DNA of 64,000 nucleotides from Apostichopus japonicus. Its lineage: Eukaryota > Echinodermata > Holothuroidea > Aspidochirotida > Stichopodidae. Position 1 is the stretch's first letter. The number at the start of each line of letters is the position of its first letter. The stretch spans positions 8,089,501-8,153,500 of the forward strand of contig NC_092581.1 in NCBI RefSeq assembly GCF_037975245.1. The letters run 5' to 3'. The notes under the pieces are model-generated. The model did not search any database. It was not told the origin of the DNA and saw only the letters and a list, made by a program, of their open reading frames with translations. This document shows, in pieces, positions 8,101 through 35,100 of the stretch. Made by a program: the position numbers and the translations under genes.

Positions 8101-11100
8101 GTGGGAAAGGGGTGGGGGTTGGGAATGGCATGGTAAACAGGAAGTCTTGGGTGGGCATAGCTAAGAGTAATGGTGATCTGTAACATTAGAAGCTTTAAAT
8201 TTAAAAACAATCAGTGACACTGCCTTCTCCCTCATATCAATAGTGTATTAATGTATGTATTGTTAGTCACCCATACTGCCTGTCTATTTGATCATGCAAT
8301 GATTCTGAGACCATTTGACATGTTTCATGGAAAATCTCATCGTTTTATATTCTCAGACATGTCCTCTATGAACCTATGTCACAATTTTTTTTTCCACAGA
8401 GGATGGTAAGTTATACACTTTTGGAGAAAACGACCTAGGAAAGCTTGGTCTAGGTGATGAGTTTACAGGTAGCACTAACATTCCAACTCAAGTTACCGGT
8501 ATCAAAAGTCCAGTCCATTGTGTTGCTTGTGGGAACAATCACACAGCTGTTATTGCAGGTGGGTGTAAAATAAGTTCACTTGTCTCATGTAATTTTGGAC
8601 ACCTGTGTTCTTCATACTTTGCATGTTTACTTTTCAGAAATATATCTTCAACGGTTTAACCGTAAAAGAAAGTCTTTTAAATCTGTTTATGTTTATTCCT
8701 TAGTTGGTGGCGGAAATGGGTGTTATGGGTGGGGTTGTCTTGGCAGCGAAGCTGCAGTTGCTGACCTCTAAGATGTTAATTGTCAGTTTTATGTTAAATA
8801 GGACTTCAGTAAACAACTTAATTGCACATGTAGATTTGATTGGTCGTTCACTGGGCTCAGTTGAATAGATGAGACTTTCTAAAGCAAAATGTTGATTTAA
8901 TTCAACAAGTACACCATGTCATCAACATTGCAGAGATTACAGGGTGTGGCGAGGTTGGGACTCATTTCTCTTTGACTGGTATTCATTGCTGAATGTTTAT
9001 TTTGGGTCACCTAGGCTGGAAATGTGCCAGCCAAACTAGCTATTTGATCCAACTTAAAACTTTATGCCAATTATGCAATCGATACATTTTGTCTGTTCCA
9101 AAGGTGACATGGACTTGTTTACATTTGGTGAAGGAAGTCAGGGTCAGCTGGGACTGGGTCCTTCTGTTTTACAGACGAGCACACCACGCATCGTGAATAA
9201 ACTAAAGAAGCACCGTCTCAAGTCTGTATCCTGTGGTGAGAGCCATACTGCGGTGGTAACAGGTAAAGCATGCATTTTCTTATGTGATTAATGACAGTGT
9301 AAGATTTGTTTAAGTAGAAGGCACATGTTTTTTATTTCTTAGCTTTATCACATGTGTAATTTGTAAATTTTAATTCTATATTTCTTATGGCTTTATTTGT
9401 GAATATTATATATTTATTTTAGTTCGAAGTCTCTTATTGTAAGGGTGTACAGGCCTCCAGGCTACAGGAATTTGGTTTTCTTTTGTACATCCTGATCGGC
9501 TTTGTGTTTTCATATTTTGTTGTTCGTATACTGTTCTTGTGATTGGATCAAATATATAATGAATGAATGAATGAACATGTATATTCATAGTCTTTTGTTA
9601 GTTCCATGGTTCCTTTCAGAAATGCCCAAAAGTTCTCAAAACAGAAATCAAGAAACTTTCCACTTTTGATCCTTCACAGAAAGCGGCTGTCTGTACACTT
9701 TTGGAGATGGGCGACATGGAAAGTTGGCTCAAGGTGAAGAAAGTTTCAGTAATTTATTCGTGCCAGAACGAGTTAGACGTTTGAAAGGATTTTTAGTCGA
9801 GCAGGTCAGTATCCTTCCTCCCTCTGGTACACATTGTGAATCTTAACCTTAATTTACTTCAAGCTAGCCAAAACAAGAGAAGAAAAAAATGTTTGTTTAC
9901 ACTTTTGAAGGACTACTCCAATGGGTAAAGATGATCAGAAATAGTTTTGCAAAAGAATATATGCAAATTGGACAAATTGCCACTAAATCACAGAAAAATG
10001 TGTAGTTTTGTCTTTACTTTTGCCAAGATAAACAAAATTAATAAATTTAATGGAAACTACTATATGCATACATTTAATGACTAAACTATTCCCTTCACCA
10101 ATCTTATTTTGTTGACCTTACCTAGTTAAGGTGAGTAGATAGCATACACCTGATTGTACAGGGTGTAATTCATTGCCCTTGTTTAGTCCTTGGTGGAGTA
10201 CTCAACTCTGTTCCTAATAATTTGCAGTACAAGTACAACATCATGAGTACCCATGCAAGTTCAATTTCCCTTGGTACAAGTACTAATTTATAAGCACAGG
10301 TAAGTGTACATAAATTTGCACAATGCCCTTAGTATGAGTGCAAATCCACAATGATCAATACAAGAACAGTCAGTCTATTTACTACAAATATCTTTCCTAC
10401 TTTTGGATTTGGTAAGGAAATAAGTTGTTCTTGAAATTTATCTCAGAGACAGTAGTAACAAAGGAGTGTCTTCCATTTTTCATCACCAGTTTATAATATT
10501 TGAGGTTAACTACAAACTGTTGTCTTTTTGGTTCCTTGCTGAAAGCAAAGGAACCTATGTATTCAGGTTGGCGTGTGTGTGTGTGTATGTATGTGTGTGT
10601 GTGGGTGTGTGTGTGTGCGTGTGTAACAGCTTCCAATTGAGGACACTCATAGTGTTACACACCTTCCAACCGGGGACTTGCTCCCAAACGGGGACGTCCC
10701 CGTTTGGTTTATGCTCGTATCTCTGTTCCTATTGGTCAAAATAGTTACCGCTAAAATTTCCAGTTCAATAGGCGGGAGTCGTCAATTAGTATATTTGAAA
10801 CGTTTGAGTGTAAATATTTGTGTTTTCTGAGCATGGTTGTCTGTAATGCGCGGTCCCTGTTTGCACAGTGAGAAATCAAATCACGTGACATGTCACTGCC
10901 GCGAAAGTTGACGACTGCCCTCACCTACGATGTCCCCGTTTAGTCGAAATGTAACTACACAACTACACAAGGAGCACGCTACTTACTACTACAAGTGAAA
11001 ACATCCAGAATAAGTCAGTGATTCAAGTCGTTGTTTTTCCAGAAAAGGACCTAGTGAGTAAGTAAATTAAGCAATGTGCAATAATTCCAAGTAAACAACT

Positions 11101-14100
11101 CGTACGTTGTTTAATTAGCGTAATATCAAACGTGGACGTCCCCGTTCCGATAGGCCCAGGCTAAAGTTAGGCTAGGCCTAGTCTGATAGACTTACTATCG
11201 TTAGTTCTGTGCTAGTCTAGTCGTAACTGTTTTACCAACGTTCTGTCTAAATTAAAAAGGAACGATTAATGCTTTTAATGGTAATTTAGAGACAACAAAA
11301 GTTACGGAATGATTGAACAATGATATTTGTCCCACTCATTTTAAGATAAGGCTAGATAAGTCTAGGGTAGCCTAACATAAGTAACGTTAGCATCAACACA
11401 GAGACGATAAGGTATATGCCATGCATTTTGTCAAGCAGGAACACGTGCCCGGTTGGATAGGTAATCGTGAAGTATCAAAAGGGTCCTCCCCATTTGGATA
11501 GGTTAACATGATACACGATGTTATAGTATATACCCCAGGTAGACTAGCCATCACTCCACACACTTGTAATGATTAAGAAAATCACTCTTTGAGTAGTAGT
11601 ACTACTAGCCTAGGCCTAGTACTACTTTAGTATTACTAGTACTACCCTAAGTGTTGGCCATGTGGGTTAGTCAATTATTATCAGTAGCTTGGTACCATTG
11701 TTGGTGCTATGATATGGCTTCTTCTGGTTTTCCTATAGATCCAAATACTGTGTTTGGACATTTCATTACAACTTCAGTTTCAGTTTACCACGAGATTGTT
11801 TCACTCTGTCTTCGCTTTGGGATAACAAGACTATCAATTTGTTTTTGTGACTTTCTCAAAGCTTGGTGCATATTTGTGTATGAAGAAGAAGATTTTGATG
11901 TTATACAACTACATGTGTTACACAACCATCTTAATTGTGAAGTAGCTCATATTTAAGAACAAGTGAACATTCAAAACTATGCTGTAAGATATTGTCCCAA
12001 AATGTGAATATGTAGGCCTATGTTGGTGTTCTTAATTGTTGGAAGATCTATCCATAGGCTTTAGGTAGCAGAAATAGTAAAAAGGCCATGGAAGGCCACT
12101 TAGGCCTTTATTCGCCTGAGAAAGTTAATCTGATGAAATATTTTTATCATCACCAAAACAATTCAAACTAACTGATAGGATGTAAAGAACCAAACAAGCT
12201 GTGTCTTAGTTCTTGACTTTAGTCTGTTATTTCACTGACCCCTTCTTTTGCTTAAGTGACAGTTACTTGTTCATGAAAGTGTCATGAAAACATTTTAATC
12301 TTTACATTCTGTTGCATTGGTTATTAATTGGAAGCAATTGTGAATGGAATATTTTTTAACCTCACTAACTTTTCCTAACAAGACGCTGGTTTCAGTACTA
12401 AAAGAAATAACCAGTGACATGGGTCAGTCAGTTCACTACAATGCTTTTTCCCCCAAGTACTACATTGTTGAAATTTGAAGAGAGAAGAAAACCACAAATG
12501 TCATTATTCCACACTCAAAATGTTCATAGTTCATCACTCCAACAAACAGATTTAGAGAAATATTACCAGTGCATCGGTTAGTCTATGACCTGCATTATAG
12601 GCTTTGTTAGGCTACTGTACTTACAGTTATTGCAGTAAATGTTTATATCATGAATCCTTACATCACAGATCTAATAAGGTTTTTCACCATCCAAACAGAT
12701 ACATGCTGTCATGCAATTGTTGTCTACCATTTTGATGTTTAAAAAACTATAACTAAGCTAATATTAGACTTGTATAGTTTTGGTTTGTTGACGGTCAATG
12801 ATGTCATGTGAAAATCTTCTATAGAGCAACACAAATGTACGAAAATCTACAAAATCTAACCTTGTGTTTATTAATCTTCATTTTAACAACTAGACATGCA
12901 AAGAAGAACAAGAAAAAGACGTAGATCTGTTACAGAACTATGTACAGAAGAGGATCCCCCTGGATTCCTTGTAAAGAATTCTCCAGGAAAAGGTATGCAT
13001 TATCATAAATATTGCAAGTATTTCCCTTCATAAGCACTTTTTCAATAATATATTCAGCATACTTTCTTGCAAAATGGACAGATGGACTTTCACCACTGTA
13101 AACCAATTACTGTGCTGAACAAAACTCTTTCATATGCTGAGCGTAATACAGTTTGCGACTTTTTAACTCATCAAATGTTGAAGCTTTGTTTAGTTAATGT
13201 TTTTCTTACTTGTCAGTTGTTTGGTTCACTTCAGTTATGAAATAGATCCAATTTACCAACTTTGTTACCATATTAGTGTGGAGTGACAAAGCAGATGGAT
13301 AGCCTTATACTGGCAAGGTGTCTCCTAACACAAAATGTAATACTGTACTGTTAAACTTTTCTTTTCATTAGCTGTGATGCAGGAATGTGTTCTATATCTT
13401 TTCATTATTAAAGGGAGAGGTGTCTTTACCGACTGCATAGTTGAGAAAGGGGAATTCCTTTTCTCCTATCATGGTGAACTCATTTCTGGGAGAGAAGGGG
13501 AGACTAGGGAGGAACATACCAGCAGTGTATTCAGATATTTCTTCAAATATCAAGACAAGAAATGGTGGTAAGCTATATGTAATTGTCATGAAGTAAACAG
13601 TCCATTTATAGCCCAAAATGGTTTATAACCATAGTGCACTTTACTTGCTTCACTATATACATTATACACAACAGTATGTACTTACAGCCTAAGGAGTTCT
13701 TGTCTGATTCTGAATCTATCCAATTCTGGACTATTCTTGACTTGAAATTAATAAAAAGCCTAGGACCTCAGCCAAGAGAATGTTCGAGGGTATATGAATT
13801 ATCACTCTATTTTTCCACTATTCTTTTCTCAAGCATACAAAAGCACATTAAATAACTTTCTCACCATCACTGAAAGTTGCAGTTATGATTGAGAGAGGAG
13901 ACAGATAATTCATATTCAAAACAGCCTTGTCATTGTACAATCTGATGGCTTTCCATATGAAAGGAAAGTTTTATTAACAATATATTGAATGCATTTGTTT
14001 ATTCTTTTGATTATCACTATTAAAACCATAAATGTTTACAATATATTTATCTTTCACATTTTGTAGGTATTGCAATTAAAATGGCTGTGTTTATCAGCAC

Positions 14101-17100
14101 CATTAATTAGGAATATTGTATACTACATGTGTTTGTGACTGGTATCTTTTTTCTTGCAGTGTTGATGCTACAAATGAACCCACTCATGGTCCAAAGCTTG
14201 GCCGTCTCGTAAACCACGGAAGAGGAGATCAGGCCAATGCAAAAATGGTAGTCAAGGCTCTGAACAATTTGCCCATTCTGTGCTTGTTAAGCAAAGAAAG
14301 ACTTACCCCAGGAGTAGAAATTTTGTATGATTACGGCCTTGACGAGAAGGATATGCCATGGATGAAGAAGGTACAGTAGGAATTTAATGTTTTATTTTGT
14401 ACACGATAAGTTTGGATATTGTATTCTCAGTGTATATTGATTTGTATATTTCATAGCTGACTAACAGGCTCGTTGTAGTCTCTTGGGTGTTTAATTTCTC
14501 ACTTATTTGGTTGTATACAGAGTGCAGACTGAAGGTGAGATCATTTACTTTGCATCCTTATGGTACCTATGTCTGCCAAAATGCACCTGGAATGATGAAC
14601 TAGGCCATCACTAGCTAAATGTTCCCATGGGAATAGAATGCATTACTGTACATTCATTGTTGGGAAACAAAATGTGGTTGTGTATTAAGTCCATCACTAA
14701 TCACTGTTAAGCAGCTTGCAAGTGGTTTTACTAAACAATAATGTCCATTTAGTAAGACTGAGAGGTATCCAGCTTATTTTTGTGTATCATATATGTATTT
14801 TCAAAGTGACCTAATCTGTATCCCATTGAAAAAGTCAGCTCAAAGAGTCCTTACCAAAACTTATGTCATGTTCATTTCTAACTCGACAATAAGAATAAAT
14901 CTGTCTATCTATTTGGTGTACTGAATGTGAAGGGTTGTTCCGGCTAATCTGTTGTAAACAATTTTCATACTAAACGGTGTCCAAGTGCAATATGCCTAGA
15001 TCCAGTCAGATGGAAATTGTTAACTTGATCTGCTGTAATCCTTTGCATTCAGCAATAAACTTTTGACAGGAAGTTTCTCATTCTCATTTCACATAGCTTC
15101 AGTACTGAAATGTGTGCAATATATGTCTTCCATTCCAGCCACCAGGCTCCTCTCTGACCCATACAGGTTAATTCTCATTTCTTGTGTTGGTTTTCAAGTT
15201 ATTATTTTCTGCAGTTACACAGTTAAAGGCTATTTTGCCTTGTTTATCTTTTGCATTCCATTAAGTGTTAAAGGGATATTCCAGTGGCAGATGATGTTAG
15301 TGTACATTCACGAAAAAGATGAAAATATTCCGCACTAGTACTTTAAAACCCTGTCTCAATATTTTGTCTCTAAATGTGTTGCTTTGTGGTTAATTATACT
15401 TGCAAGTAAATGCCTAGAAAATTGCAGGAAATTGATCCGAGTGGGTGGTCTGTGATATGTCATCATTTCTTCAAAAGCTCTACTTTAACTACATAATTTT
15501 TCTGTTGATTTGTTCTTAAAATATGATACGTTTGGATTTTCATTGGAAATAGCTCTCATTTTACTCTGAATTTAATCCTTAAAATACAAATTTTTAGTAA
15601 GAACGTTATTTCCACTCTCGATAAATGGTTTGCACTTTATAATAAAACACAAAAGTATTTTCAGTTAGTCTGATGTAATGACACCACTAACTCTGTCATA
15701 ACATCATTGCCAGACACATTTGAAACATTTTTCCAAAGAAATTCATGAATATCTTTGCATCAACTTGTGCCAGTGGAATATCCATCCAACACCTTTTTTT
15801 TTGCATTGTTTAATTCTCACATTTTTTCTTTTGCCTGTTCATTATTGTCTTTCTTGTTTCAACCTAACATTTCAGCTGATGATTTGATGAGAGTATAAAA
15901 AGAGGTAATTGTAATAATAAGTTGACAGAATAATTGAGAGTCTTATTAATGTACATATAATAAGTAAGTAAGTGACTGAGTCAGTCAGTCAGTCCGTCAG
16001 TCAGTCAATCAGCCAGTCAGTCAGTCAGTCAATCACTCTACTGTAAAAAATATGGCTATGTTACAAATATGAAAAATAGTGATAGAGCGAACGATAAAAC
16101 ATTAAACAATCGAACAATAAAACACACAAAGGCAGGACCTAACGGCTCAAGTTATCATAGTAAAGCCTTATTGCACGTGGAATAAATGAATTGCGATGAC
16201 GGTTGCTTCTCATGGGTGGGAGACGCAGTCTGCCAGTGCCCCTAGTTATGATATTATCGTGCAGATAACAGTGAAGCGGGTGATCATGGTCATTCCAAAC
16301 AATGTCTAGTTTGTTTTGGAGCAAGCACATATGGATATAATAGTAGTGTCCTCATTTGGTACTGTGGGCAGTAAATCTGTATATGATATATGTAGATCTC
16401 GTGAACAGTTTAATTTTAATGTGAAGTAAAGTAGTATAGCATAGTAGCCTTGATAGGTCACAGCCTACAGATATGATAATTTTCCAATTGGAATATGGTG
16501 CGTATGCAAGAAATACATTGTTTGAAGGTACATGCATACTTAGTTGATTCAGTATAGAATTAACCGTTGCAAATAAGTTAAGTTACGAATTAGTAGAAAA
16601 TAGCAGCAATGTTGGTACATCATATATCAATCCTTACAGTACCTTGCATCACACATAGTTTACAACATATGGCATATGATGTAGTGCATGTGATAGAAAT
16701 ATGTTGTTGTTACCTGTGACAGTGTGCAGTGCCACTAATTGGTACAGTACATAATTTCTACATCGCCAAGTAGACAAATATTTTATCTTCAGTTGGTGTG
16801 TAATGTACCATATCTAGTTTAAATTTACATTAGTTGCCCTCCTAACCCTAATGGGAAAAATGTTTTACTTTTCGTACCAGTTCATAATGTCCAAATCATT
16901 TTTTTCTAGATCTTAGTTTGTAATCATTATATACCATAGAATCCACATGTCATATGTGATACATCATCTTCTTAAATATGCATTAAACATTCTCCATTGT
17001 CCCAAGGGCCACTGCAGGTTTAATTCTAAGACATGAATTGTCTTAAGTTGCTGCTTTAGCATAGGTTCTAGCATGGAGTTTTCAATGGTGTTTATTTACT

Positions 17101-20100
17101 AATTATTACAACAACATATGCATTGGCAGGCCTATGTGCTACATCTGATGTAGCTCATGCACTTATCCTTTTAATGTGAAAAGTTCATTGCATGTACCAG
17201 AACTATTGTTCCTAGCCATTGGTACACAAGGTCCAAATATTAATGCTGTACCTATGTAATGATATAGAGTGATCACATTTGGTACGTGTATTATTTCTAT
17301 TGCAAATGTGTTAAATTTCTAAAAGATAGAATATTTTATCCAAACATGGTTTGTTAAACAGTGATCTTCTTCATTGGGCACAATACAGTGTCTCCATCAG
17401 TGTACAGTGTAAAACTAAACAAATATTGTTTTTAGGCACTCAGACACAACGTCCTCATTTGGTTTGTCATTTTCTTGTAGCTACTTGTATTGTGTAAGTA
17501 TTTATATTCTTTCAAGGATCTAATGCACAGACTCCCCAGTTGGTATGTACTTTGATTGTAGCTAATGTTTCAAGGTACAGTATAAAGTAGTAGAATATAT
17601 CATCCATGAATATTCAAATGGTATGTTGTACACCTCTCCATCTTAATGGTGAATGTAGATCAGAAAGTACATTGTTTCTCCATTTGGTGTGTGAGTATAG
17701 AAATTAGTACTTTCTAGGATCTGATGCACAGAGTCCCCAGTTGGTATGTACTTTGATTGTAGCTAATTTGTCAAGGTATAAAGTAGTAGAATATATCATC
17801 CATGAATATTCAATTGGTATGTGGTACACCTCTCCATCTTAATGGTGAATGTAGATCCAAAAAGTATTGTACATTGTTTCTCCATTTGGTGTGTGTGAGT
17901 ATAGAAATTAGTACTTTCTTAGGCTCTGATGCACAGAGTCCCCAGTTGGTATGTACTTTGATTGTAGCTAATGTGTCAAGGTATAAAGTAGTAGAATATA
18001 TCATCCATTTATATTCAAAAGGTATTTGGTACACCTCTCCATCTTAATGGTGAATGTAGATCCAAAAAGTACATTGTTTCTCCATTTGGTGTGTGTGAGT
18101 ATAGAAATTAGTACTTTCTAGGCACTGATGCACAGAGTCCCCAGTTGGTATGTACTTTGATTGTAGCTAATGTGTCAAGGTATAAAGTAGTAGAATAAAT
18201 CATCCATTAATGTTCAAATGGTATGTGGTACACCTCTCCATCTTAATGGTGAATGTATATCAAAAAAGTACATTGTTTCTCCATTTGGTGTGTGTGAGTA
18301 TAGAAATTAGTACTTTATAGGCACTGATGCACAGAGTCCCCAGTTGGTATGTACTTTGATTGTAGCTAATGTGTCAAGGTATAAAGTAGTAGAATAAATC
18401 ATCCATTAATGTTCAAATGGTATGTGGTACACCTCTCCATCTTAATGGTGAATGTATATCAAAAAAGTACATTGTTTCTCCATTTGGTGTGTGTGAGTAT
18501 AGAAATTAGTACTTTATAGGCACTGATGCACAGAGTCCCCAGTTGGTATGTACTTTGATTGTAGCTAATGTGTCAAGGTATAAAGTAGTAGAATAAATCA
18601 TCCATTAATGTTCAAATGGTATGTGGTACACCTCTCCATCTTAATGGTGAATGTAGATCCAAAAAGTACATTGTTTCTCCATTTGGTGTGTGTGAGTATA
18701 GAAATTACTACTTTATAGGCACTGATGCACAGAGTCCCCAGTTGGTATGTACTTTGATTGTAGCTAATGTGTCAAGGTATAAAGTAGTAGAATAAATCAT
18801 CCATTAATGTTCAAATGGTATGTGGTACACCTCTCCATCTTAATGGTGAATGTATATCAAAAAAGTACATTGTTTCTCCATTTGGTGTGTGTGAGTATAG
18901 AAATTAGTACTTTCTAGGCACTGATGCACAGAGTCCCCAGTTGGTATGTACTTTGATTGTAGCTAATGTGTCAAGGTATAAAGTAGTAGAATAAATCATC
19001 CATTTATATTCAAATGGTATGTGGTACACCTCTCCATCTTAATGGTGAATGTAGATCAAAAAAATACATTGTTTCTCCATCCGGTGTGTGTGAGTATAGA
19101 AATTAGTACTTTCTAGGCACTGATTCACAGAGTCCCCAGTTGGTATGTACTTTGATTGTAGCTAATGTGTCAAGGTATAAAGTAGTAGAATATATCATCC
19201 ATTTATATTCAAAAGGTATGTGGTGCACCTCTCCATCTTAATGGTGAATGTAGATCAAAAAGGTACTGTACATTGTTTCTCCATTTGGTGTGTGTGAGTA
19301 TAGAAATTAGTACTTTCTTAGGCTCTGATGCACAGAGTCCCCAGTTGGTATGTACTTTGATTGTAGCTAATGTGTCAAGGTATAAAGTAGTAGAATATAT
19401 CATCCATTAATGTTCAAATGGTATGTGGTACACCTCTCCATCTTAATGGTGAATGTATATCAAAAAAGTACATTGTTTCTCCATTTGGTGTGTGTGAGTA
19501 TAGAAATTAGTACTTTCTAGGCACTGATTCACAGAGTCCCCAGTTGGTATGTACTTTGATTGTAGCTAATGTGTCAAGGTATAAAGTAGTAGAATAAATC
19601 AGCCATGAATATTCAAATGGTATGTGGTACACCTCTCCATGTTAATGGTCAATGTAGATCAAAAAAATACATTGTTTCTCCATTCGGTGTGTGTGAGTAT
19701 AGAAATTAGCACTTTCTAGGATCTGATGCACAGAGTCCCCAGTTGGTATGTACTTTGATTGTAGCTAATGATTCAAGGTATAAAGTAGTAGAATATATTA
19801 TCCATTAATATTCAAATGGTTTGTGGTACACCTCTCCATCTTAATGGTGAATGTAGATCAAAAAGTACATTGTTTCTCCATTCGGTGTGTTTGAGTATAG
19901 AAATTACAGGGTAGTTAGTACTTTATTGGCACTGATGCACAGAGTCCCCAGTTGGTATGTACTTTGATTGTAGCTAATTTGTCAAGGTATAAAGTAGAAG
20001 AATATATCATCCATTTATATTCAAAAGGTATGTGGTGCACCTCTCCATCTTAATGGTGAATGTAGATCAAAAAAGTACTGTACATTGTTTCTCCATTTGG

Positions 20101-23100
20101 TGTGTGTGAGTATAGAAATTAGTACTTTATAGGCACTGATGCACAGAGTCCCCAGTTGGTATGTACTTTGATTGTAGCTAATGTGTCAAGGTATAAAGTA
20201 GTAGAATAAATCATCCATTAATGTTCAAATGGTATGTGGTACACCTCTCCATCTTAATGGTGAATGTAGATCAAAAAGTACATTGTTTCTCCATTTGGTG
20301 TGTGTGAGAATAGAAATTAGTACTTTCTTAGGCTCTGATGCACAGAGTCCCCAGTTGGTATGTACTTTGATTGTAGCTAATGATTCAAGGTATAAAGTAG
20401 TAGAATATATCATCCATTTATATTCAAAAGGTATGTGGTGCACCTCTCCATCTTAATGGTGAATGTAGATCAAAAAAGTACTGTACATTGTTTCTCCATT
20501 TGGTGTGTGTGAGTATAGAAATTAGTACTTTCTAGGCACTGATGCACAGAGTCCCCAGTTGGTATGTACTTTGATTGTAGCTAATGTGTCAAGGTATAAA
20601 GTAGTAGAATATATCATCCATTAATATTTAAATGGTATGTGGTGCACCTCTCCATCTTAATGGTGAATGTATATCAAAAAAGTACATTGTTTCTCCATTT
20701 GGTGTGTGTGAGTATAGAAATTAGTACTTTCTAGGCACTGATGCACAGAGTCCCCAGTTGGTATGTACTTTGATTGTAGCTAATGTGTCATGGTATAAAG
20801 TAGTAGAACATTTTATCCATGAATATTCAAATGGTATGTGGTGCACCTCTCCATGTTAATGGTGAATGTAGATCAAAAAAGTACATTGTTTCTCCATTTG
20901 GTGTGTGTGAGTATAGAAATTAGTACTTTCTAGGCACTGATGCACAGAGTCCCCAGTTGGTATGTACTTTGATTGTAGCTAATGTGTCAAGGTATAAAGT
21001 AGTAGAATATATCATCCATTTATATTCAAAAGGTATGTGGTGCACCTCTCCATCTTAATGGTGAATGTAGATCAAAAAAGTCCTGTACATTGTTTCTCCA
21101 TTTGGTGTGTGTGAGTATAGAAATTAGTACTTTCTTAGGCTCTGATGCACAGAGTCCCCAGTTGGTATGTACTTTGATTGTAGCTAATGTGTCAAGGTAT
21201 AAAGTAGTAGAATATATCATCCATTTATATTCAAAAGGTATTTGGTACACCTCTCCATCTTAATGGTGAATGTAGATCCAAAAAGTACATTGTTTCTCCA
21301 TTTGGTGTGTGAGTATAGAAATTAGTACTTTCTAGCATCTGATGCACAGAGTCCCCAGTTGGTATGCACTTTGATTGTAGCTAATGTGTCAAGGTATAAA
21401 GTAGTAGAATAAATCATCCATTAATATTCAAATGGTATGTGGTACACCTCTCCATCTTAATGGTGAATGTAGATCAAAAAGTACATTGTTTCTCCATTTG
21501 GTGTGTGTGAGTATAGAAATTAGTACTTTCTAGCATCTGATGCACAGAGTCCCCAGTTGGTATGTACTTTGATTGTAGCTAATGTGTCAAGGTATAAAGT
21601 AGTAGAATATATCATCCATTTATATTCAAAAGGTATGTGGTGCACCTCTCCATCTTAATGGTGAATGTAGATCAAAAAAGTACTGTACATTGTTTCTCCA
21701 TTTGGTGTGTGTGAGTATAGAAATTAGTACTTTCTTAGGCTCTGATGCACAGAGTCCCCAGTTGGTATGTACTTTGATTGTAGCTAATGTGTCAAGGTAT
21801 AAAGTAGTAGAATATATCATCCATTTATATTCAAAAGGTATTTGGTACACCTCTCCATCTTAATGGTGAATGTAGATCCAAAAAGTACATTGTTTCTCCA
21901 TTTGGTGTGTGTGAGTATAGAAATTAGTACTTTCTAGGCACTGATGCACAGAGTCCCCAGTTGGTATGTACTTTGATTGTAGCTAATGTGTCAAGGTATA
22001 AAGTAGTAGAATATATCATCCATTAATATTTAAATGGTATGTGGTGCACCTCTCCATCTTAATGGTGAATGTATATCAAAAAAGTACATTGTTTCTCCAT
22101 TTGGTGTGTGTGAGTATAGAAATTAGTACTTTCTAGGCACTGATGCACAGAGTCCCCAGTTGGTATGTACTTTGATTGTAGCTAATGTGTCATGGTATAA
22201 AGTAGTAGAACATTTTATCCATGAATATTCAAATGGTATGTGGTGCACCTCTCCATCTTAATGGTGAATGTAGATCAAAAAAGTACATTGTTTCTCCATT
22301 TGGTGTGTGTGAGTATAGAAATTAGTACTTTCTAGGCACTGATGCACAGAGTCCCCAGTTGGTATGTACTTTGATTGTAGCTAATGTGTCAAGGTATAAA
22401 GTAGTAGAATAAATCATCCATTAATGTTCAAATGGTATGTGGTACACCTCTCCATCTTAATGGTGAATGTAGATCAAAAAGTACATTGTTTCTCCATTTG
22501 GTGTGTGTGAGTATAGAAATTAGTACTTTCTTAGGCTCTGATGCACAGAGTCCCCAGTTGGTATGTACTTTGATTGTAGCTAATGTGTCAAGGTATAAAG
22601 TAGTAGAATATATCATCCATTTATATTCAAAAGGTATGTGGTGCACCTCTCCATCTTAATGGTGAATGTAGATCAAAAAAGTCCTGTACATTGTTTCTCC
22701 ATTTGGTGTGTGTGAGTATAGAAATTAGTACTTTCTTAGGCTCTGATGCACAGAGTCCCCAGTTGGTATGTACTTTGATTGTAGCTAATGTGTCAAGGTA
22801 TAAAGTAGTAGAATATATCATCCATTTATATTCAAAAGGTATTTGGTACACCTCTCCATCTTAATGGTGAATGTAGATCCAAAAAGTACATTGTTTCTCC
22901 ATTTGGTGTGTGAGTATAGAAATTAGTACTTTCTAGGCACTGATGCACAGAGTCCCCAGTTGGTATGCACTTTGATTGTAGCTAATGTGTCAAGGTATAA
23001 AGTAGTAGAATAAATCATCCATTAATATTCAAATGGTATGTGGTACACCTCTCCATCTTAATGGTGAATGTAGATCAAAAAGTACATTGTTTCTCCATTT

Positions 23101-26100
23101 GGTGTGTGTGAGTATAGAAATTAGTACTTTCTAGCATCTGATGCACAGAGTCCCCAGTTGGTATGTACTTTGATTGTAGCTAATGTGTCAAGGTATAAAG
23201 TAGTAGAATATATCATCCATTTATATTCAAAAGGTATGTGGTGCACCTCTCCATCTTAATGGTGAATGTAGATCAAAAAAGTACTGTACATTGTTTCTCC
23301 ATTTGGTGTGTGTGAGTATAGAAATTAGTACTTTCTTAGGCTCTGATGCACAGAGTCCCCAGTTGGTATGTACTTTGATTGTAGCTAATGTGTCAAGGTA
23401 TAAAGTAGTAGAATATATCATCCATTTATATTCAAAAGGTATTTGGTACACCTCTCCATCTTAATGGTGAGTGTAGATCCAAAAAGTACATTGTTTCTTC
23501 ATTTGGTGTGTGTGAGTATAGAAATTAGTACTTTCTAGGCACTGATGCACAGAGTCCCCAGTTGGTATGTACTTTGATTGTAGCTAATGTGTCAAGGTAT
23601 AAAGTAGTAGAATAAATCATCCATTAATATTCAAATGGTATGTGGTACACCTCTCCATCTTAATGGTGAATGTAGATCAAAAAGTACATTGTTTCTCCAT
23701 ATGGTGTGTGTGAGTATAGAAATTAGTACTTTCTAGGATCTGATGCACAGAGTCCCCAGTTGGTATGTACTTTGATTGTAGCTAATGTGTCAAGGTATAA
23801 AGTAGTAGAATATATCATCCATTAATATTCAAATGGTATGTGGTACACCTCTCCATCTTAATGGTGAATGTAGATCAAAAAAATTACATTGTTTCTCCAT
23901 TTGGTGTGTGTGAGTATAGAAATTAGTACTTTCTAGGCATTGATGCACAGAGTCCCCAGTTGGTATGTTCTTTGATTGTAGCTACTGGTAAATATATTTT
24001 TTTTTTAGTAGAACATAGCATTCACAAGCATTTTGTATGTGACTCATCTATCTTTCCATGAATGTGCTGTATTGTATCAGTACAAGTTATGTTGTTCTTA
24101 GGTTCTATCATAGATTGGCCCACAAGGTATGTTATTAGTGTCATCAGTTTCTGTGTGCTACTGTAAGATGTCAATGGTTTGTATTTAATTCATCATTGTA
24201 GCTGCTACAGTGTTGACATAATAGTGTCATTGGTTTTTGCAAATGTGTTACCACAGTAATTATAAAGTGCTAGGCATAACTTTAAAGGTGTAGACATGTT
24301 GTGCAATGTTGCCATATTTGTTCTGATATTTGGTATTTATGATTATATTTTTAAATTTTATTGGTTCTGTTTATCTGTTTTTACTAACTTATACAAAGGT
24401 TGGTTAAAGGGTACCCTTCTTATGTATGGTATTTATGTGCACCGATGCACAGAGTCCCAAGTTGGTATGCTATATAGCTGTATATAATGTCTGGAAGATC
24501 TTATGTAGAAGAGCATAGCATCCTTATACGTTTGATATGCGACACATCATGAATGTGCATTACATGAATGTCTATACTGTACTGCCATAGTAGAACAAAT
24601 CATGTATCTGGTTACTAGCACAGAGTGTCCCCACTTTGTATGCTTAATATTTTCCGTTAAAAATGGATTCAGTTTCAAGATAAATAGAATGTAGATCAAT
24701 CCAATGGTTGCATCGACAAGTGGTATGTGATACATCATTCGATCTTGCATGTACAAAGTACATTGTTTCTCCATTTGGTGTGTGAGTATAGAAATGAGTA
24801 CTTTCTGGGCACTAATGCACAGAGTCCCCAGTTGGTATGTACTTTGATTGTAGCTAATGTGTAAATGTAAATTTGAAAATGTGTTTCCATTTTCCACAGC
24901 ATAAATATAAAGGTGTCTACATGGTGTTAAATGTTTCCTTATTTGTTTTGATATTTGATATTTATTATTATGTTTTTTTAAATTGTTTTATCCAACAGAT
25001 GGGGAACCAAAAGCCTCTGCAGTAATTCAGCAAAAACTAGCGGTAAACGACAATAAACAACCTACCTGTACAGAGGTGTTTGGAGAAACTCATACAGGAT
25101 CTGAGCAATATCAGGAAGTGGCAGACCATGACCAAAAAACAGATACAGAAGCAAAACACCCTGCAGTACTTGCGCAAGAATTGCCAGCAGCAGAACTCAA
25201 CCGACCATCAGATGTAGAAAGAGAGGCTGATGTAGAATCTACAAAGGAACCGAAAGTAGCACAACAGGTCCAGCCAACAGATATTGAACTTAAGCAAAAA
25301 CTAGCGGTAAACGACAATAAACAACCTACAGAGGTGTTTGGAGAAACTCATACACGATCTGAGCAATATCAGGAAGTGGCAGACCTTGACCAAAAAACAG
25401 ATACAGAAGCAAAACACCCTGCAGTACTTGGGCAAGAATTGCAAGCAGCAGAACTCAACCGACCATCAGATGTAGAAAGAGAGGCTGATGTAGAATCTAC
25501 AAAGGAACCGAAAGTAGCACAACAGGTCCAGCCAACAGATATTGAACTTAAGCAAAAACTAGCGGTAAACGACAATAAACAACCTACAGAGGTGTTTGGA
25601 GAAACTCATACACGATCTGAGCAATATCAGGAAATGGCAGACCTTGACCAAAAAACAGATATAGAAGCAAAACACCCTGCAGTACTTGGGCAAGAATTGC
25701 AAGCAGCAGAACTCAACCGACCATCAGATGTAGAAAGAGAGGCTGATGTAGAATCTACAAAGGAACCGAAAGTAGCACAACAGGTCCAGCCAACAGATAT
25801 TGAACTTAAGCAAGAAATGAAAGTAGCAGACCAAGTGAGAGGATACAAAGTTCTTGAAACAAGTAAGTACCATATCATCAACAATTATCAACATATCATG
25901 TTAAATGTGCAGATACAAGTGATTCTGTATTATATTTGTTTGCATATGCTATGTGGAAAGCAACTAGTCATAATCCTCGTATGAAATACATGTCTGTTTG
26001 CTAAGATGGATAACTAAGAGCCTAACACTAAGTGTTCTCTTTGATACAATTTGTTACTTTTTGTCAAATTTTTAAGACAAAATCAAAGCAAAAATATGTG

Positions 26101-29100
26101 CTTCTTCTGGCTATTGCAGGTGTTCCATAGTTGATTATTACTTCATAATTAAATGTGACAATCACTGATCTTTTCAGAAATCAAAGATGACAGTTTGCTG
26201 ACGGCATGTTGTAATGAAGTAGGCGAAGATGATGGTCAAAGCGATCAAGACTCATCAAGTTCTTCAGATGAAGGAAGTGAATATTTACCATCTGAAGAGG
26301 AAGAATTGGTACCACCATCAGATGCATCAAATGATTCATTCCCAAGATATCCAAACCTTAATCTACTGCTTGGATCTGATGTGGATACTACAGAGTCACA
26401 GGAGACTGCAAAGTTCAACGAGGAAGATAGTCCTGGTCCACCTCTAATACATGTTAAAACCACTAGCAACTCAGATGGTAGAAAGTATAATAAGAAACAT
26501 ATCTGCTTTTACTGTGAGATATCCCAAGCAAAGTTGCCACGTCACTTGCAAAGTGCACATTCAGATGAGTCTGCTGTCAGAGATTGGATGGGAGAAACTA
26601 ATATTACGTTGAAAAATGCCAAGCTTACAAAAATCAGAAACTTGGGAAATCACATCAACAACTGCAAAGTTTTGGAAGAAGGCAGGGGAGAACTACTTGT
26701 GAAGTATAGACCTGTGGGAAGTGTAGATCCAGCAGAGTTTGTTCCATGCCCAACCTGCTACGGGTATTTGACCAGGAAATTTCTCTGGAAGCACACCTGT
26801 CCATTACAAAATAAGCAGAGTGATGCTGGAAAGAAGAAAAGAGGAGACAGAGTCAGAAATGGTACCATGCTGTTACCAAGCCCATCAAATTTGCATTCAG
26901 AAGTTGCAGAACTTTTGTCTACTCTAAAAAATGACAATGTGTCAAGAGTGATTAAGAGTGATGAGCTCATTCTTCAGTTTGCCAAGAAGGAGAATCTAAA
27001 ACTAGGCCATGATCCTGAACAACAAAACTACACACGCACAAAGCTACGAGAAGTTGCAAGACTCTTAATTGACGCTCGTGTTGTAAGCAAAGATGAAAAC
27101 CAAACCTTAACTGAACTAATTCATCCTGCAAAATATGACATCGTTGTGACTGCTGCGCGAAATTTAGCAGGATTTGATAGCAGCACACATACATACAAAG
27201 TACCCAGTCTTGCATTAAAACTTGGCCATTCCCTGAAGAAGTGTGCTCTTATCGTAAAAGCTGAAGGATTGAAATCTGGTGATGAAAATGCTGTTAATAA
27301 ATCCACACAGTTTCATGAATTATGCGAGATGAAATGGACAGAGGATATTTCTGTCCATGCCCATCGTACACTCACGGAGAACAAAAGAAACAAAGCAAAG
27401 GCATTGCCTCTAGCAGAAGATGTTCTTTGTCTCACATCCTACCTGAAAGAAACATCAGAAGTACAAAGGAAGCTTGTGAAGGAAGGAACATGTGACAGTT
27501 TCACAGCTTGGAAATCTCTGAATGAACTTACTCTGACACAAGTGATGCTCTTCAACAGGAGAAGACAAGGTGAGATCTCAAAAATGAGTGTTGATGACTA
27601 CAATAGTAGATGCCTTCCTGAATCCATGGACTACATTTATGATTCTCTTAGCGACTTTGAGAAAGAGTTGTGCAGGACATTCAAAAGAGTAGAAATTGTT
27701 GGGAAGAAAGGAAGAACAGTTCCTGTTCTGCTAACTAAAGAAATGGAGGAATCAATGTCGTTGCTACTCAGTAGCAGAGAGAACGTTGGTGTAAGTGCTG
27801 AAAATCCTTATATGTTTCCATCGACTTCAGATGGTCACATTCGAGGTTCTGACTGTATTAGAAGGTATGCTGTTTTGTGTGGAGCAACTAATCCAACTTT
27901 CCTGCGATCGACAGCTTTAAGGAAGCAGATTGCCACGGTTAGTCAAGTGCTGAACCTCAAAGACAACGAGCTTGACATACTTGCCAAATTTCTCGGTCAT
28001 GATGTACGAGTACATCGGGAGTTTTATAGACTACCTGATTCCACGCTGCAGGTTGCGAAAATTTCAAAATTACTCTTATCGCTGGAGAATGGTAGAACCT
28101 CAAACCTTGCAGGCAAATCACTTGATGAGATTGACATAGAAAAAGATGAAGGTAAGGAATACCACAATTTTACATTTCTTGGGAAACTGTGCACATACTT
28201 CTCCATGATGCAAGCCCCAATTGTTTGTAGAACATGTTGAATGTTGTTCTGAGTAATGATTTCTAGTTCTACAAACAATCCCAGGTCTAAATGTTCTCTA
28301 CACCCTCAAGCTCTAAATATGTCAAACATTATCAAGTATAATGACAGCAAACCACTCCTGACTGCTTTGCTTAAAAATGCTGCTTACATTTCTAAATGCC
28401 TAAAACAGATTAACTAGAGCTCAGTATTTGGAATCACAGGGAATAAATTCCTTCATAGACCCGTAGTACTGCTGAAATGATTAAACATGGTGAGGGTACA
28501 GTCAGCTTTCTTGCACTTTTTACCCAATTGTTGTCTACGTGTATGTAAGATGTGTTGAATATATATCACAAATATAACTCTTGATGTTCTTTGCAGAGAT
28601 ACAGGAGGATGAAAGTGTAAATGACAGTGAAGAAGATGAGAAAGTGGAAGAAGAGGATGAGCAGGAGCAGGAGCCTTTGAACCATGTTCCACATGTGACA
28701 ATGCCAGAACAAAGTCCAATTCCAGCAACTGCAAAAAGTATGTAAACTAGATAGTTTGTAATATTACATTTCTGTAATTCTTCATGTACAGTAAGCATCA
28801 CGTCGGCTAGCGATATGAGTAACTGCTCACAATATACACTGACTTTCTCTTGCAATTGCTTCCTTGCTTCTGTTTTGCTTATATCAGATGAAAATGGGTG
28901 TCATGCCTGCTCATGTGGTGTGCAAAGTACAATGTCTCACCAGTCACTTGTTTGAACTCTATTCAAGCATAATATATATTTGCTCATTTTCAATGTATAT
29001 GTGTCTGATGTGGGTGAATGTCACAATATAATATTTTAATAACTCTAAAATATGCCATTAACTGCTCACGACTTTGCATACAAAACAAAAATAGGACTCA

Positions 29101-32100
29101 ATCCACAGTAACATTGACATGGATGACTGAACAAATACATGTTACTGTAGCTACTGTGAACAATCCTCACAATTTGCCTTTTACACTAGTCTTGTTAATT
29201 CTTGAGGGATTTGCCGCAACTCATTTTCTAGTAGATGATTGAATTGTTCCACCTGTTTTTTGAGAAGCCAGAAAACATTATAGTTTTGTATGAACAGACC
29301 TATTCCCATTCTGACAGATGCACCGGGCATGCTCTTTAGGTGACCTTTTACACATGTCTGTTCTCATCTAAGGCGATTTTGTCTGTTCTCATCTAAGGCA
29401 ATAGTGCAATACATATCTGCATAATTGTTTAAGTTAATTTCTTTTCACTTTTTCAGAAACACAATGCAGAAGGAGACCTTGGTCAAATGAAGAAGTAGAC
29501 ATAATGAAGAAAGCCTTCAGAAAGGAAATTGCACAGAACAAACTTCCTGGAAAAGCAGCGATTGAAAAAGTTCTTGAGCAGTATGATTGCCTTAGAGGGC
29601 GCAAATGGACCAACTTGAAAGATTTTATTCGAAATCGCTTTCTAAAAGCAAATAAAGAGTAGAGCTGTTATACAACTGTTTCAAATAAACCGTTATTTGA
29701 GTGGGTGGTACTTAGTTATGAGGATACAAGTTTCAGTGTCACTTTTCTACATGAAAAAACGTGGGAAGCAAATAGGCGGCTGCTATTTTTGTGATACTTT
29801 TCAAAGCTTTTGTTGTTTGTTCATCACATCACTCTTAAAAGTTGTGTTTGTATTTTAGATTTATGGCTGACCAGAAAAACAGCTGTGACTTATTTGACCT
29901 ATGTGTTATTTCTAATTCACTGCAACATTGCATTACTAGTTTATTTTTAATTCAGGTACTAAGTTGCACTACATACATAAAATGGTGCACAGATAATATT
30001 TCCTTAAGTAATAGAAAAACTTATGCAGAGCAAAAACAAAGGGTTAGAAAGGTTGAACAGCTCTTTTATTGTTTATGTGTTTTAATTCTTAATTACTACA
30101 TTATTACAGGCATGTTTTTCATTTCAGTAATTACGTTGCACTGCATAATTTAAATTGTGTCGAACGCCTTTAGAAAAAAAGCTGCAGAGAGAAAATTTTA
30201 AAAAAAGTAATAGAAAAACTCCTGGATAAATGAGAACACTAGGAAAAATGTAAGCTACTTATTTGTAATTGCTTGGAGAAACTTCAAAAGAAAACACACA
30301 AAGGTTAGATAAATGTTGTTTTTAAGGAGAACAGCTCTGACATTGAGTGTGGTTGCAGAAGAAAAATAGATGGCTGTTACTGCTATTTATATTATTGTTT
30401 TCAAAAATGTTGTTTTGTTTGTTGATGACAGCTTCATTAAAGTGATATTTGTACTTAAGTTTAAGGGCTGAGGGAATGTTGACTTCTTTAAAATTGGTAT
30501 ACTGTAGTTGACTGATAGAGCTAATTTATATGCTGGTCTTTGCTTAATAATGCCACATCTGAGGTGCCTAGTTGAAACATGGCTGAAATAGTCAAAAAGG
30601 TGGTGATGCTATTGGATTGATTCAAATCAATTAGCTGATATGTTTGTTTACTGTTCATTATGTTTAAGCTGTTTAACTTGGTGTTATATGAATACATTGT
30701 TTTGTTACTTACTTTTAGTTTCCATTGTGTTATAGTTATTTTCTCTGTCAATGTGTGAGATTGGCTTCTGTTAAAGGAGAAAATAGATGGCTGCTATTAC
30801 TGCTATTAATATTATTATTTTAAAAACTGTTGTTTTGTTTGTTGATGACAGTCCCATTAAAGTGATATTTGTACTTAAGTTTAAGGGCTGACCGGTAAGA
30901 CAGTTTGAGTTGAGCAATTTATTTATGTCTGATATTGGATATAAGTTCAGTTTTCAAAGCAATAGAATTGCTCTTTAATTAAACAACTTTATTACTTTAC
31001 TTAAATGGGTTTTTTTTTCAAAATCACTGCATCACCTTGATTTAAGCAATTGCATGTTACCAATATAGGGAATGTTGACCTCTTTAAAATTGGTATAGTT
31101 GACTGATAGAGCTAATTTATATGCTGGTCTTTGCTTAATAATGCCACATCTGAGGTGCCTAGTTGAAACATGGCTGAAATAGTCAAAAAGGTGGTGATGC
31201 TATTAGATTGATTCAAATCAATAAGCTGATATGTTTGTTTACTGTTCGTTATATTTAAGCTGTTTAACTTGGTGTTATATAAATACATTGTTTTGTTACT
31301 TACTTTTAGTTTCCATTGTGTTATAGTTATGTTCTCTGTCAATGTCTGAATTTGACGTATCAACGCGTATCAAAACTGATCTGAGTATGTTTTTAAACAT
31401 GAATCCAACTAAAGTTGACATATTTGAAAACTTTGTTGCCAACTTTTGCTTGTACCCATTTAGTATGGACTAAGTTACCCCTGTGCTGAAGTGTGATTGT
31501 AAATGCAAACCCTGTTAGGTATTGACAATAATAGAACATGAACCACTGTTGTGTCCCCAGTTGAAATACACTGTGTGTCCGCATTTGGTACATAACTTGT
31601 TAAGTGTGGTCCACAATTGGAATACACTGTGTGTCCCCATTTGGTACATAACTTGTTAAGTGTGGTCCACAATTGGAATACACTGTGTGTCCCCATTTGG
31701 TACATTACTTGTTAAGTGTGGTCCACAGTGGAAAAAACTGTGTGTCCCCATTTGGTACATTACTTGTTAAGTGTGGTCCACAGTTGAAATACACTGTGTG
31801 TCCCCATTTGGTACATTACTTGCTAAGTGTGGTCCCCAGTTGAAAAACACTGTGTGTCCCCATTTGGTACATTACTTGTTAAGTGTGGTCCCCAGTTGAA
31901 AAACACTGTGTGTCCCCATTTGGTATGTACTTTATCAAAATAGTTTTTAGCTTATATATTCCCTAGCATTAAGTGTTAATGAAAAGCCTCCTGCCATGGC
32001 TCATTGCAAGTCATAGGACACACCCTCATACCTGGGAATATGCCGTGCGGCACTGTCCCCACTTGGTCAGTCCAAAAAAAGAGTCCCCGATTGGAGCCTG

Positions 32101-35100
32101 TTACATGTATGTGTGTGTGTGTGTGTGTGACGCTTAAGCTTGTATGCACGATAACTCAACAAGGGATTGACTGATCATGATCAAACTTGGTGGGTGGGTG
32201 GCCCATAGTGAGTAGATGAACCCTATTGTTTTTGGTGCCCACAAAGGTCACCAAAGGTCAGTTATGGTCCAAAAACCTAAAATACTAAAACTGCAATAAC
32301 TCCCAGTGCCAATGTGCGACAAGGTTGATATTTTGGGACAAGTTGTGAACTGGTTAGGGCAATGTTTTCAAACATAACGGTCATGTGATCCGAGGTCACC
32401 AAAGGTCAATTAATGATAAAAAACTAGTATTTTTGCGATAACTTGAGAACGAATTGTCCGTTAGGGTTGGGAGTTGCTTCAATTTAATCCAATTGTCGAC
32501 CCACATCTGGGTGACCCTTGACCTCAATTTGACCTCTGGTGACCTTTTTATGTTTTGGGGATTTTTACAGTTTCGATGCTATTTTCAGATGTCAAAGGTA
32601 CTTCTGATCATAATTGTCAATAGGTTGACCCCCGTGTGACCTTCGTGTGCGGAGTTATACGAGGTCAAAGTTAATTTTCAGACATTTAATGCAATAACTC
32701 TCAGTTCCAAGGTGTGACATGGTTGATATTTTCGGACAAGTTGCAAATGGTATAGGGGAATATTTTCAAACTTAACGGTCATGTGATCCGAGGTCACCAA
32801 AGGTCAATTAATGATAAAAAACTAGTATTTTTGTGATAACTTGAGAACGAACTGTCCGTTAAGGTTGGGAGTTGCTTCAATGTAATCCATTTGTCAACCC
32901 GCATCTGGGTGACCCTTGACCTCAATTTGACCTCTGGTGACCTTTTCGTGTTTTGGGGATTTTTACAGTTTCGATGCTATTTTCAGATGTCAAAGGTGCC
33001 TTCAGATCATAAATGTCAATAGGTTGACCCCAATGTGACCTTCGTGTGCGAAGTTATACGAGTTCAAAGATAAATAATATTAATGAGGGTCACAGGTCAA
33101 ACGTGAAAAACTCCCAAGTTGCAATAACTTAGCTACTATTTATTGGAATTTCGTCAAACTTGGTATGATGATATTGGTAGATAGTCTCTACACACTGATG
33201 TGTGTTGCAATTGATATCATGCATGTTTATAAGGGGGGGGGGGGGGGGGGCTAGCATTATTTCGTTATAAAAAGTTTGTATGCACAATAACTCAACAAGG
33301 GAATGACCAATCATTACCATACTTGGTGAGTGGGTGGCCCATAGTAAGTAGATTATCCCTGTTGATGTTGGTGCTCATTTCATGAATATTAATGAGGTCA
33401 TGGGGTCAAACGTGAAATACTCCAAATTGCAATTACTTGGCTACTATTACTAGTCGGAATTTCGTCAAACTTGGTATGATGATAATGGTAGATAGTCTTC
33501 ACACACTGATGTGTGTTGCAATTGATATCAGGGCTTAGCATTACTTTGGCAACAAAAGTTTGTGAGCATAAATTACTGTTGTTGTATTAGGGCTTTGTTA
33601 GAAATTTCCCTATGAATGGAACTAATGAACAGCAGCAAGGAACCATGAAATGTTTTCATTCTGGTTTAGGTTTCTTGTGGGGGTTGTCACACTCTTGTAA
33701 GAGCCAGAAGAAGAACTCCTAACCGAGATTGCGTTTCTTCAGAATCTGAAACAGAGACGGAACAAACTAATCAAAGAATTTCCAATACAGTGGAGAGACC
33801 TCCACAAGATGGACAATTGGGAGAAAATTTAAAGAAATTAGCCGAATCTATTGAACTTCAGGGATCATTAAATGGATCCTTAGGTGGTACAGCAAGGGGC
33901 AGGAGAAGACAAAGAGAGGTAAAGAAACTTTTTTGTTTTCATTTGCTTGACACTTCAAGCTGATTTAGTACTATCACTATTAATACTACTTTTTGCATTC
34001 AATTTACTACTACAATCTGTTGATACCATACTCAACTGCTAGTGGGAAAGAAAATGTAGCTAAATATTTAACAAGTTACTAGTGCACCAAAGTCACACCA
34101 GTGACAAGGAACGTAAAGGGTTTGCAAATGCAAAATCAATAATATAGTGTTATATAGGAATAATATAGTGTTCAAAGTTTGTGTAGCAGCCTTGAAGGCT
34201 CTGAACCTCAAAATAATACTGTAGAGTCTGTGTACAATCCTGCTAGGTATACTTCTTTGCATTAGCGATTTGCCCATTAAGCATCAATCCGTAGCATGTT
34301 GCGATGCGATACCAGATCAATAATTCCTTGCGTTTAACTTGTGGGAAACAAATATGTCTTCACTGCGCTAAACCTTGTACGAATCACTCATCAGGAGATA
34401 TTAAATGGTTTTATACCATTTGGGAAGAGTAATACAATGTTACAACCCAGTGCAATATGCAGTTATGATAACAACATTATGTATTCCATTATAACCTTAT
34501 ACTGATCAGTTACTATTTGACTGCCCAAATTTCAGAACTTACAGAGCTCTAGTTTACTATCACATTTTTAATCCTTGTGTGTTACCTGTTTCTTAAATTT
34601 GGGCTAAACTCCATACATTTGAGCAAACTATTAAGAATAACAAAACAGAAATGTAAAAAAAAATACCAAATAATGTTTGTGGGAAATTTGATTCAGTCAT
34701 GAACACACATGCTTTTGAGCTCAAATATGTTTAAGTGATGACATCATGACTGGAATAAAAATTGAAGAAAGATATGACTTGGTTATAAGGTGATAGTTAT
34801 CAGTAATAAGCAGCTGGCTTAGAGTGACCGGATACATGTGAGTAAGTTGGGGTATATGGTGGACCACACAGTATGCCTTTCAATATTATAGTAAGTTAGG
34901 GTGTATGATGGAACACAGTATGTCTTTCAATATTATTGTAAGTTGGGGTATATGGTGGAACACAGTATGTCTTTCAATATTATAGTAAGTTGGGGTATAT
35001 GGTGGAACACAGTATGTCTTTCAATATTATAGTAAGTTGGGGTATATGGTGGAACACAGTATGTCTTTCAATATTATAGTAAGTTAGGGTATATGGTGGA

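Follow-up and report, generated by a model that had tools for sequence, protein, structure and literature searches.

SET and recombinase-like exons at the locus

We analysed a 64,000-nucleotide stretch of Apostichopus japonicus DNA (the window; positions 8089501-8153500 of C21 in G000, an assembly of 671.6 Mb), in which exons for a KMT5A-type SET protein and for a zinc-finger protein with a tyrosine-recombinase-like domain lie within a repeated segment with fixed ends (Table 1). An initial annotation had placed these exons in one block at 12,896-29,662, all on one strand, and this placement holds, with the coordinates running from the first SET ATG to the last stop codon. The block had also been described as bounded by terminal inverted repeats, and we located the ends of the segment at 10622 and 32105, which is 2.3-2.4 kb outside the block itself.

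Joining the three SET exons gives a 156-residue protein that covers the full Pfam SET profile (E = 1.3e-13) and whose closest solved structures in the PDB are those of KMT5A/SETD8 (E = 1.3e-20, compared with 6.2e-16 for the next family and 2.6e-6 or worse thereafter). The SET motifs GRLVNH and YDYG are intact, as first reported, and together with the sequence match they assign the protein to the KMT5A/SETD8 type; the Tyr of YDYG has a role in monomethylation. Both motifs are kept in the window copy, in the relatives C4 and C8, and in the diverged loci L029 and L030.

The four downstream exons, A-D, have splice sites that are all in one phase. Exon A lacks a start codon of its own and therefore needs an upstream exon; synonymous and nonsynonymous counts among its three repeats were too few for use. 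Exon B encodes the two zinc fingers already noted at this locus (C109-C112-H122-H127 and C190-C193-H205-C207, in a protein numbered from 26180), with ligands invariant in ten aligned sequences, and the recombinase-like domain, whose motifs run in the order of an Arg box, GKKGRTVPV (Lys), an Arg box with Thr for the usual His, LGH, and a Tyr nine residues on. Ten sequences, 32-63% identical to the window sequence, all keep the putative active-site residues R, K, R, H and Y. The recombinase-like domain of the initial annotation stands as putative catalytic motifs in register, at a similarity to known recombinases that is remote.

We compared this domain with known recombinases by several routes. 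MAFFT aligned its motifs with those of XerC, XerD, FimB, FimE and lambda Int, and a pattern for the second box, devised post hoc with the sequence already seen, occurred once in the six window frames and in 0/60,000 shuffles. Bacterial genomes yielded 41 stretches with the pattern, two of them confirmed by tblastn and both integrases. These two integrases are in register with the recombinase motifs (BLASTP E = 9e-7 for L006), but they share 92% identity and were chosen via a common 8-residue word, so their similarity was partly selected for. A five-protein profile scored 12.5 bits compared with at most 7.0 in 3,000 shuffles (1,537 scored), a score that comes mostly from residues 378-425 and to which the catalytic register contributes little; a second profile test included one of the selected bacterial integrases and is not independent. 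The protein scores 22.4 bits against PF00589, below the cut-off of 27.1, and has no Pfam match beyond this weak one. This match, which covers residues 386-436 in the longest frame, was rejected as support, as its register differs from that of the catalytic motifs and it disappears when the domain is excised. PHROGs and NCBIfam gave weak unrelated matches only, and no relatives were found in viral contigs and phages.

The SANT-like C terminus that had been read into exon D was not confirmed: Pfam gave no Myb/SANT match at thresholds up to E 10, and Foldseek gave none to the PDB at E <= 0.001. Its AlphaFold single-sequence model has three helices (mean pLDDT 75), and the SANT-like label is plausible.

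Ends, copies and motif arrays

The recombinase exon has at least 68 matches in the genome. Four of these, one of them in the window, have 99-100% identity along the full 657 residues. For each of the three other near-identical copies (C21b, C16 and C15) we retrieved 40 kb of surrounding sequence and found that they share the span from about 10.6 to 32.1 kb of the window, comprising SET exons, satellite and recombinase exons, with one insertion each in C16 and C15. All four copies carry identical end sequences, at spacings of 21,484, 19,140, 19,905 and 18,720 bp, and are spread over three chromosomes, so that several copies with the same ends in unrelated places, the mark of a mobile element, were found. 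The 25-nt ends are imperfect inverted repeats that match at 20/25 positions when read inward (by eye).

Segmental duplication of host genes without transposition would account for intron-rich genes with polyadenylation signals and for the lack of long inverted repeats. However, the four copies break at identical bases, with short inverted repeats inside TG tracts, and beyond the shared span they have only dispersed repeats in common (in a comparison that covers rows of at least 250 bases and few satellite rows), with a diverged repeat continuing on the right in C15 and two short matches elsewhere in C21b. We therefore consider duplication very improbable. A further candidate, host genes nested in an intron without any element, was rejected once the copies were aligned; the inverted-repeat scans had been too coarse for a 25-nt imperfect repeat.

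TG tracts flank all four copies on both sides (4/4), and the final eight bases of the left tract may be part of the element. A dispersed, hairpin-like repeat (GGTTCCTTGC...GGAACC) lies beside the left TG tract in the window, in C15, in C16 (diverged) and in the 63%-identical C4 relative, and not beside that of C21b. The insertion target may therefore be a TG tract, often inside one repeat family. Compared with the window copy, non-coding sequence differs at 24/10,596 positions in C21b, 55/10,115 in C16 and 57/10,167 in C15, and coding sequence at fewer (4/3,656, 8/3,644 and 10/3,644, respectively); these sums leave out the C15 row of SET intron 1, which has an insertion of about 258 bp. Non-coding differences of only 0.2-0.6% point to recent movement of the element. 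A fifth copy, on C17, is decayed and has stops inside both its SET and its recombinase matches.

A 12-bp motif, GTCCCCNNTTGG (CCAANNGGGGAC on the other strand), which we defined after seeing the sequence, is present in 44 copies in the element and absent from the remainder of the window. Most occurrences lie in the 199-bp satellite (32) or the 56-bp array (6), whose copies are not independent. The other 6 are found outside the arrays, 3 close to the left end, 2 close to the right end and 1 at 24,824. In the C4 relative, the left end is 77.6% alike across 107 bases and lacks TGTAACAG, and the same paired motif is found inside it. No exact motif was found in the other loci among L028-L040, for few of which ends were fetched. 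We infer that the 12-bp motifs would be binding sites for the element's own protein.

Table 1. Positions of the features in the window, with loci elsewhere in the genome in the last row
Feature	Position	Strand	Length or content	Basis
Putative mobile element, whole	10622..32105	+	21,484 bp	identical ends in four copies; shared block compared with three others
Left terminal inverted repeat	10622..10646	+	TGTAACAGCTTCCAATTGAGGACAC	copy alignment
Right terminal inverted repeat	32081..32105	-	GAGTCCCCGATTGGAGCCTGTTACA on +	copy alignment
TG tract, left junction	10573..10621	.	last eight bases TGTGCGTG common to all four copies	
TG tract, right junction	32106..32129	.	TGTATG common to all four copies	
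SET exon 1	12896..12992	+	ATG	splice sites
SET exon 2	13414..13567	+		splice sites
SET exon 3	14160..14379	+	GRLVNH and YDYG	phase-0 donor 14371, else stop TAG 14377-14379
199-bp satellite	17509..23984	+	32 copies, one GTCCCCNNTTGG each	
Exon A	24999..25862	+	three 86-aa repeats	splice sites
Exon B	26178..28151	+	two zinc fingers and tyrosine-recombinase-like domain	
Exon B codons	R 27563, K 27704, T (for H) 27911, R 27920, H 27998, Y 28025	+		
Exon C	28597..28737	+	acidic stretch	
Exon D	29457..29662	+	C-terminal domain, three predicted helices	
56-bp tandem array	31553..31925	+	six GTCCCCNNTTGG	
RPGR intron holding the element	9805..33669	+	23,865 bp	exon joins, RPGR match
Loci with equal SET and recombinase frame lengths	C3 10.8 Mb; C4 4.19 Mb; C11 26.5 Mb; C16 3.93 Mb; C17 12.56 and 13.3 Mb			two genome searches

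The element lies inside one intron of RPGR, since the flanking exons join in frame and the alignment runs without a gap across their junction: seven RCC1-repeat exons (4,700-9,804) and the exon at 33,670 together match RPGR at E = 7.1e-114. Six other RPGR introns that we measured are 362-1,092 bp long, and the intron minus the element is 2,381 bp. Downstream of the RPGR exons is an Asp-rich frame with a GAT repeat (41017-41472, + strand), which we take to be a candidate for the acidic RPGR region, comparable to the ORF15 exon. Pieces of a retroelement reverse transcriptase (Pfam RVT_1 and DUF6451) lie at 668-1965 on the - strand. An inverted pair of 22 nt (5718-5739 and 46213-46234, 95% complementary; one in the window and 0 in each of 12 shuffles) encloses RPGR exons and was rejected as the element's ends.

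Linkage of SET and recombinase across the genome

A genome search with the SET protein returned 114 exon-wise matches, and we found that homologues of the two parts are neighbours elsewhere as well. Among the 68 listed recombinase matches, 29, 33, 40 and 45 have a same-strand SET match upstream within 5, 10, 20 and 40 kb, respectively; downstream or on the opposite strand, none of the 68 has a SET match up to 40 kb away. The expectation under uniform random placement is 0.0034 per match for the 40-kb distance, or about 0.2 in all, although copies of one subfamily are not independent in this count. Conversely, a recombinase match follows within 40 kb downstream for 71/114 SET matches and is absent from that range for 43/114.

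In some relatives the two parts also share a reading frame. The last SET exon and the recombinase lie in one open frame in L029 (1,484 residues), L030 (1,429) and L032 (1,263), with the SET half matching Pfam at E = 2.3e-5 in L030 and falling just below the cut-off in L032, and at six more loci two genome searches gave equal open-frame lengths for the SET and recombinase matches (Table 1). In C8, splicing from a phase-0 donor that follows SET exon 3 to a phase-0 acceptor would enter a 1,041-residue recombinase frame. The position of the exon 3 donor at 14371 in the window is matched in two relatives, C4 and C8.

We read ten diverged loci directly (L027-L036) and found SET in eight; L035 and L036 have no SET in the 3.9 and 3.3 kb upstream, respectively. 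In the subfamily of L036 (35% identity) there is no SET within 8 kb, and its five copies have a SET match 22-31 kb upstream. Four loci of the 35%-identical subfamily, L037-L040 (C13:2.77-2.79 Mb and 8.99-9.00 Mb), are 99.67% alike across the entire fetched length of 13.9 kb, and the repeated unit is therefore larger than 13.9 kb. The subfamily of L035 (about 41% identity; e.g. C9:34218424 and C16:6266763) has seven listed copies with no SET within 40 kb upstream; in this subfamily SET may have been lost, have diverged or never have been there. On C13, three SET matches (9229168, 9269195 and 9309222) follow each other at intervals of exactly 40,027 bp, each accompanied by another exon match at equal offset, and a 40-kb segment seems to be tandemly repeated there, with no listed recombinase match nearby.

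Interpretation and relation to known elements

Taken together, these data make it probable that the segment is a DNA transposon, about 20 kb long and recently moved, that encodes both a KMT5A-type SET domain and a zinc-finger tyrosine-recombinase-like protein, the two most likely spliced into a single fusion. The initial annotation had proposed that the element may encode its own chromatin modifier, either fused to or co-expressed with its integrase-like protein, and the fixed-end copies, the co-location and the three one-frame relatives support this proposal.

Several results weigh against this reading. No empty site was seen when joined flanks were compared with the fetched flanks, the exact end and motif sequences were not found in most fetched relatives, and 23 of the 68 listed recombinase matches have no listed SET within 40 kb upstream, although two of these (L031 and L033) do have SET by direct tblastn and were missed by the genome search. 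The SET motifs vary, with YDYG kept but ND for NH in L032 and L033; the window-type copy in C15 reads GRLANH. Judging from these substitutions, some copies need not be active methyltransferases.

On the recombinase side, the His of HxxR is Thr, or Ser in L029 (11/15 rows were compared at this position, with L009 and L011-L013 excluded, whereas the ten-sequence alignment includes L011), and homology to recombinases is remote, with an hhalign probability of 16.7 at E 0.0015. The family profile found no recombinase in the PDB at E <= 1, and the structure model of the domain (mean pLDDT 37) was unusable. The replaced His and the remote similarity would suit an alternative in which the element is truly mobile but the recombinase-like domain is a non-catalytic DNA-binding module and another enzyme moves the element, and domesticated animal tyrosine-recombinase domains that have lost catalytic residues are described (PMC3212892). 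However, the invariance of R, K, R, H and Tyr across the ten sequences argues against loss of activity, and no other transposase-like frame was recognised among the element's long frames, of which Pfam was run on few. We consider a non-catalytic module unlikely.

The splicing of the window copy is a further difficulty for a fusion. If SET exon 3 is spliced directly to exon A, the reading frame is lost; the phase-0 acceptor found to keep it, at 25,031, is weak and would give a protein of 1,204 residues. Splicing exon 1 to exon A is in frame and gives 1,093 residues with SET skipped. A search for a linking exon between SET exon 3 and exon A, at one pair of score limits, returned five candidates, all of which lie in the satellite and were rejected. 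The loss of frame on direct splicing would suit a reading in which the element has SET and recombinase as separate genes. SET would then be a passenger that ends at the TAG at 14377-14379 about seven residues past the last conserved SET residues, much as KMT5A ends soon after its SET domain; the AATAAA at 14894 and the 6.5 kb of satellite between the parts would also fit this. Against two genes stand the single open frames of L029, L030 and L032, the donor whose position behind SET exon 3 is common to the window, C4 and C8, the phase-0 route into the recombinase frame in C8, and the missing start codon of exon A. We regard two separate genes as possible, if doubtful, and a fusion of SET to the recombinase in the window copy is what we infer from the relatives.

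For the transposon with a fused protein, we propose a mechanism in which the zinc fingers and neighbouring domains would bind the 12-bp motif, which is concentrated near the ends and within the internal arrays, and the fusion protein assembled on these arrays would pair the element ends. In an excised circle a TG spacer would lie between the two inverted ends, an arrangement that resembles Xer and lox core sites, where inverted arms surround a short spacer. The recombinase could then swap the TG spacer of the circle with a genomic TG tract, and because spacer and tract would be exchanged, no target duplication of the transposase type would be needed. Least certain is the role of the SET domain, which would be carried to the element by this fusion protein and might methylate a histone lysine (by homology, giving H4K20me1) on the chromatin of the element or at its landing site, a mark that would tune self-silencing or prepare the target.

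Whether the element founds a new superfamily of animal DNA transposons is, in our judgement, an even bet. In such a superfamily one polypeptide would both recombine DNA and write a histone mark, 12-bp arrays would guide it to its own ends, and insertion would be TG for TG, with at least nine one-frame loci in one genome and some subfamilies that seem to lack SET or to have it far upstream. The element resembles KMT5A/SETD8 in its whole SET domain with GRLVNH and YDYG, and differs in that its SET is element-borne, multicopy and followed by a recombinase. Proteins annotated as KMT5A-A-like in fish and other animals may have such a layout; the name gave no papers in the open-licence literature. 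DNA elements of the HarbingerS and MuDR families carry other types of transposase. In Phytophthora these families took in a SET histone methyltransferase gene, but their hosts are oomycetes and they have no tyrosine recombinase, as far as the available part of PMC12730594 goes. SETMAR likewise fuses a SET domain to a mobile-element protein, but it is described as a primate host gene with a mariner transposase rather than a mobile element that carries SET (PMC12062965).

Cryptons of animals, fungi and oomycetes are similar in being eukaryotic DNA elements that encode a tyrosine-recombinase-type protein with no transposase-type target duplication recognised, and animal Cryptons are reported to lack terminal repeats and a C-terminal domain (PMC3212892). 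Unlike these, the present element has inverted ends, a length of about 20 kb, introns, SET, zinc fingers and the C-terminal sequence of exons C and D. Starships of Pezizomycotina are also large elements moved by a tyrosine recombinase, but their hosts are fungi and the excerpts available mention no SET fusion; membership in the captain family was compared by Pfam only. We found no description of SET joined to a tyrosine recombinase in the titles and abstracts that our searches of the open-licence literature listed, and the accessible portion of PMC9406493 has nothing on SET within an element.

An element of this kind would widen the range of eukaryotic tyrosine-recombinase elements to include inverted-repeat ends and TG-tract targeting. 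Other animal genomes contain multicopy KMT5A-like genes, which such elements could explain. Transposons have mostly been studied as targets of histone methylation, and an element with a KMT5A-type writer and its own recombinase would make it directly testable whether a transposon marks itself or its landing site.

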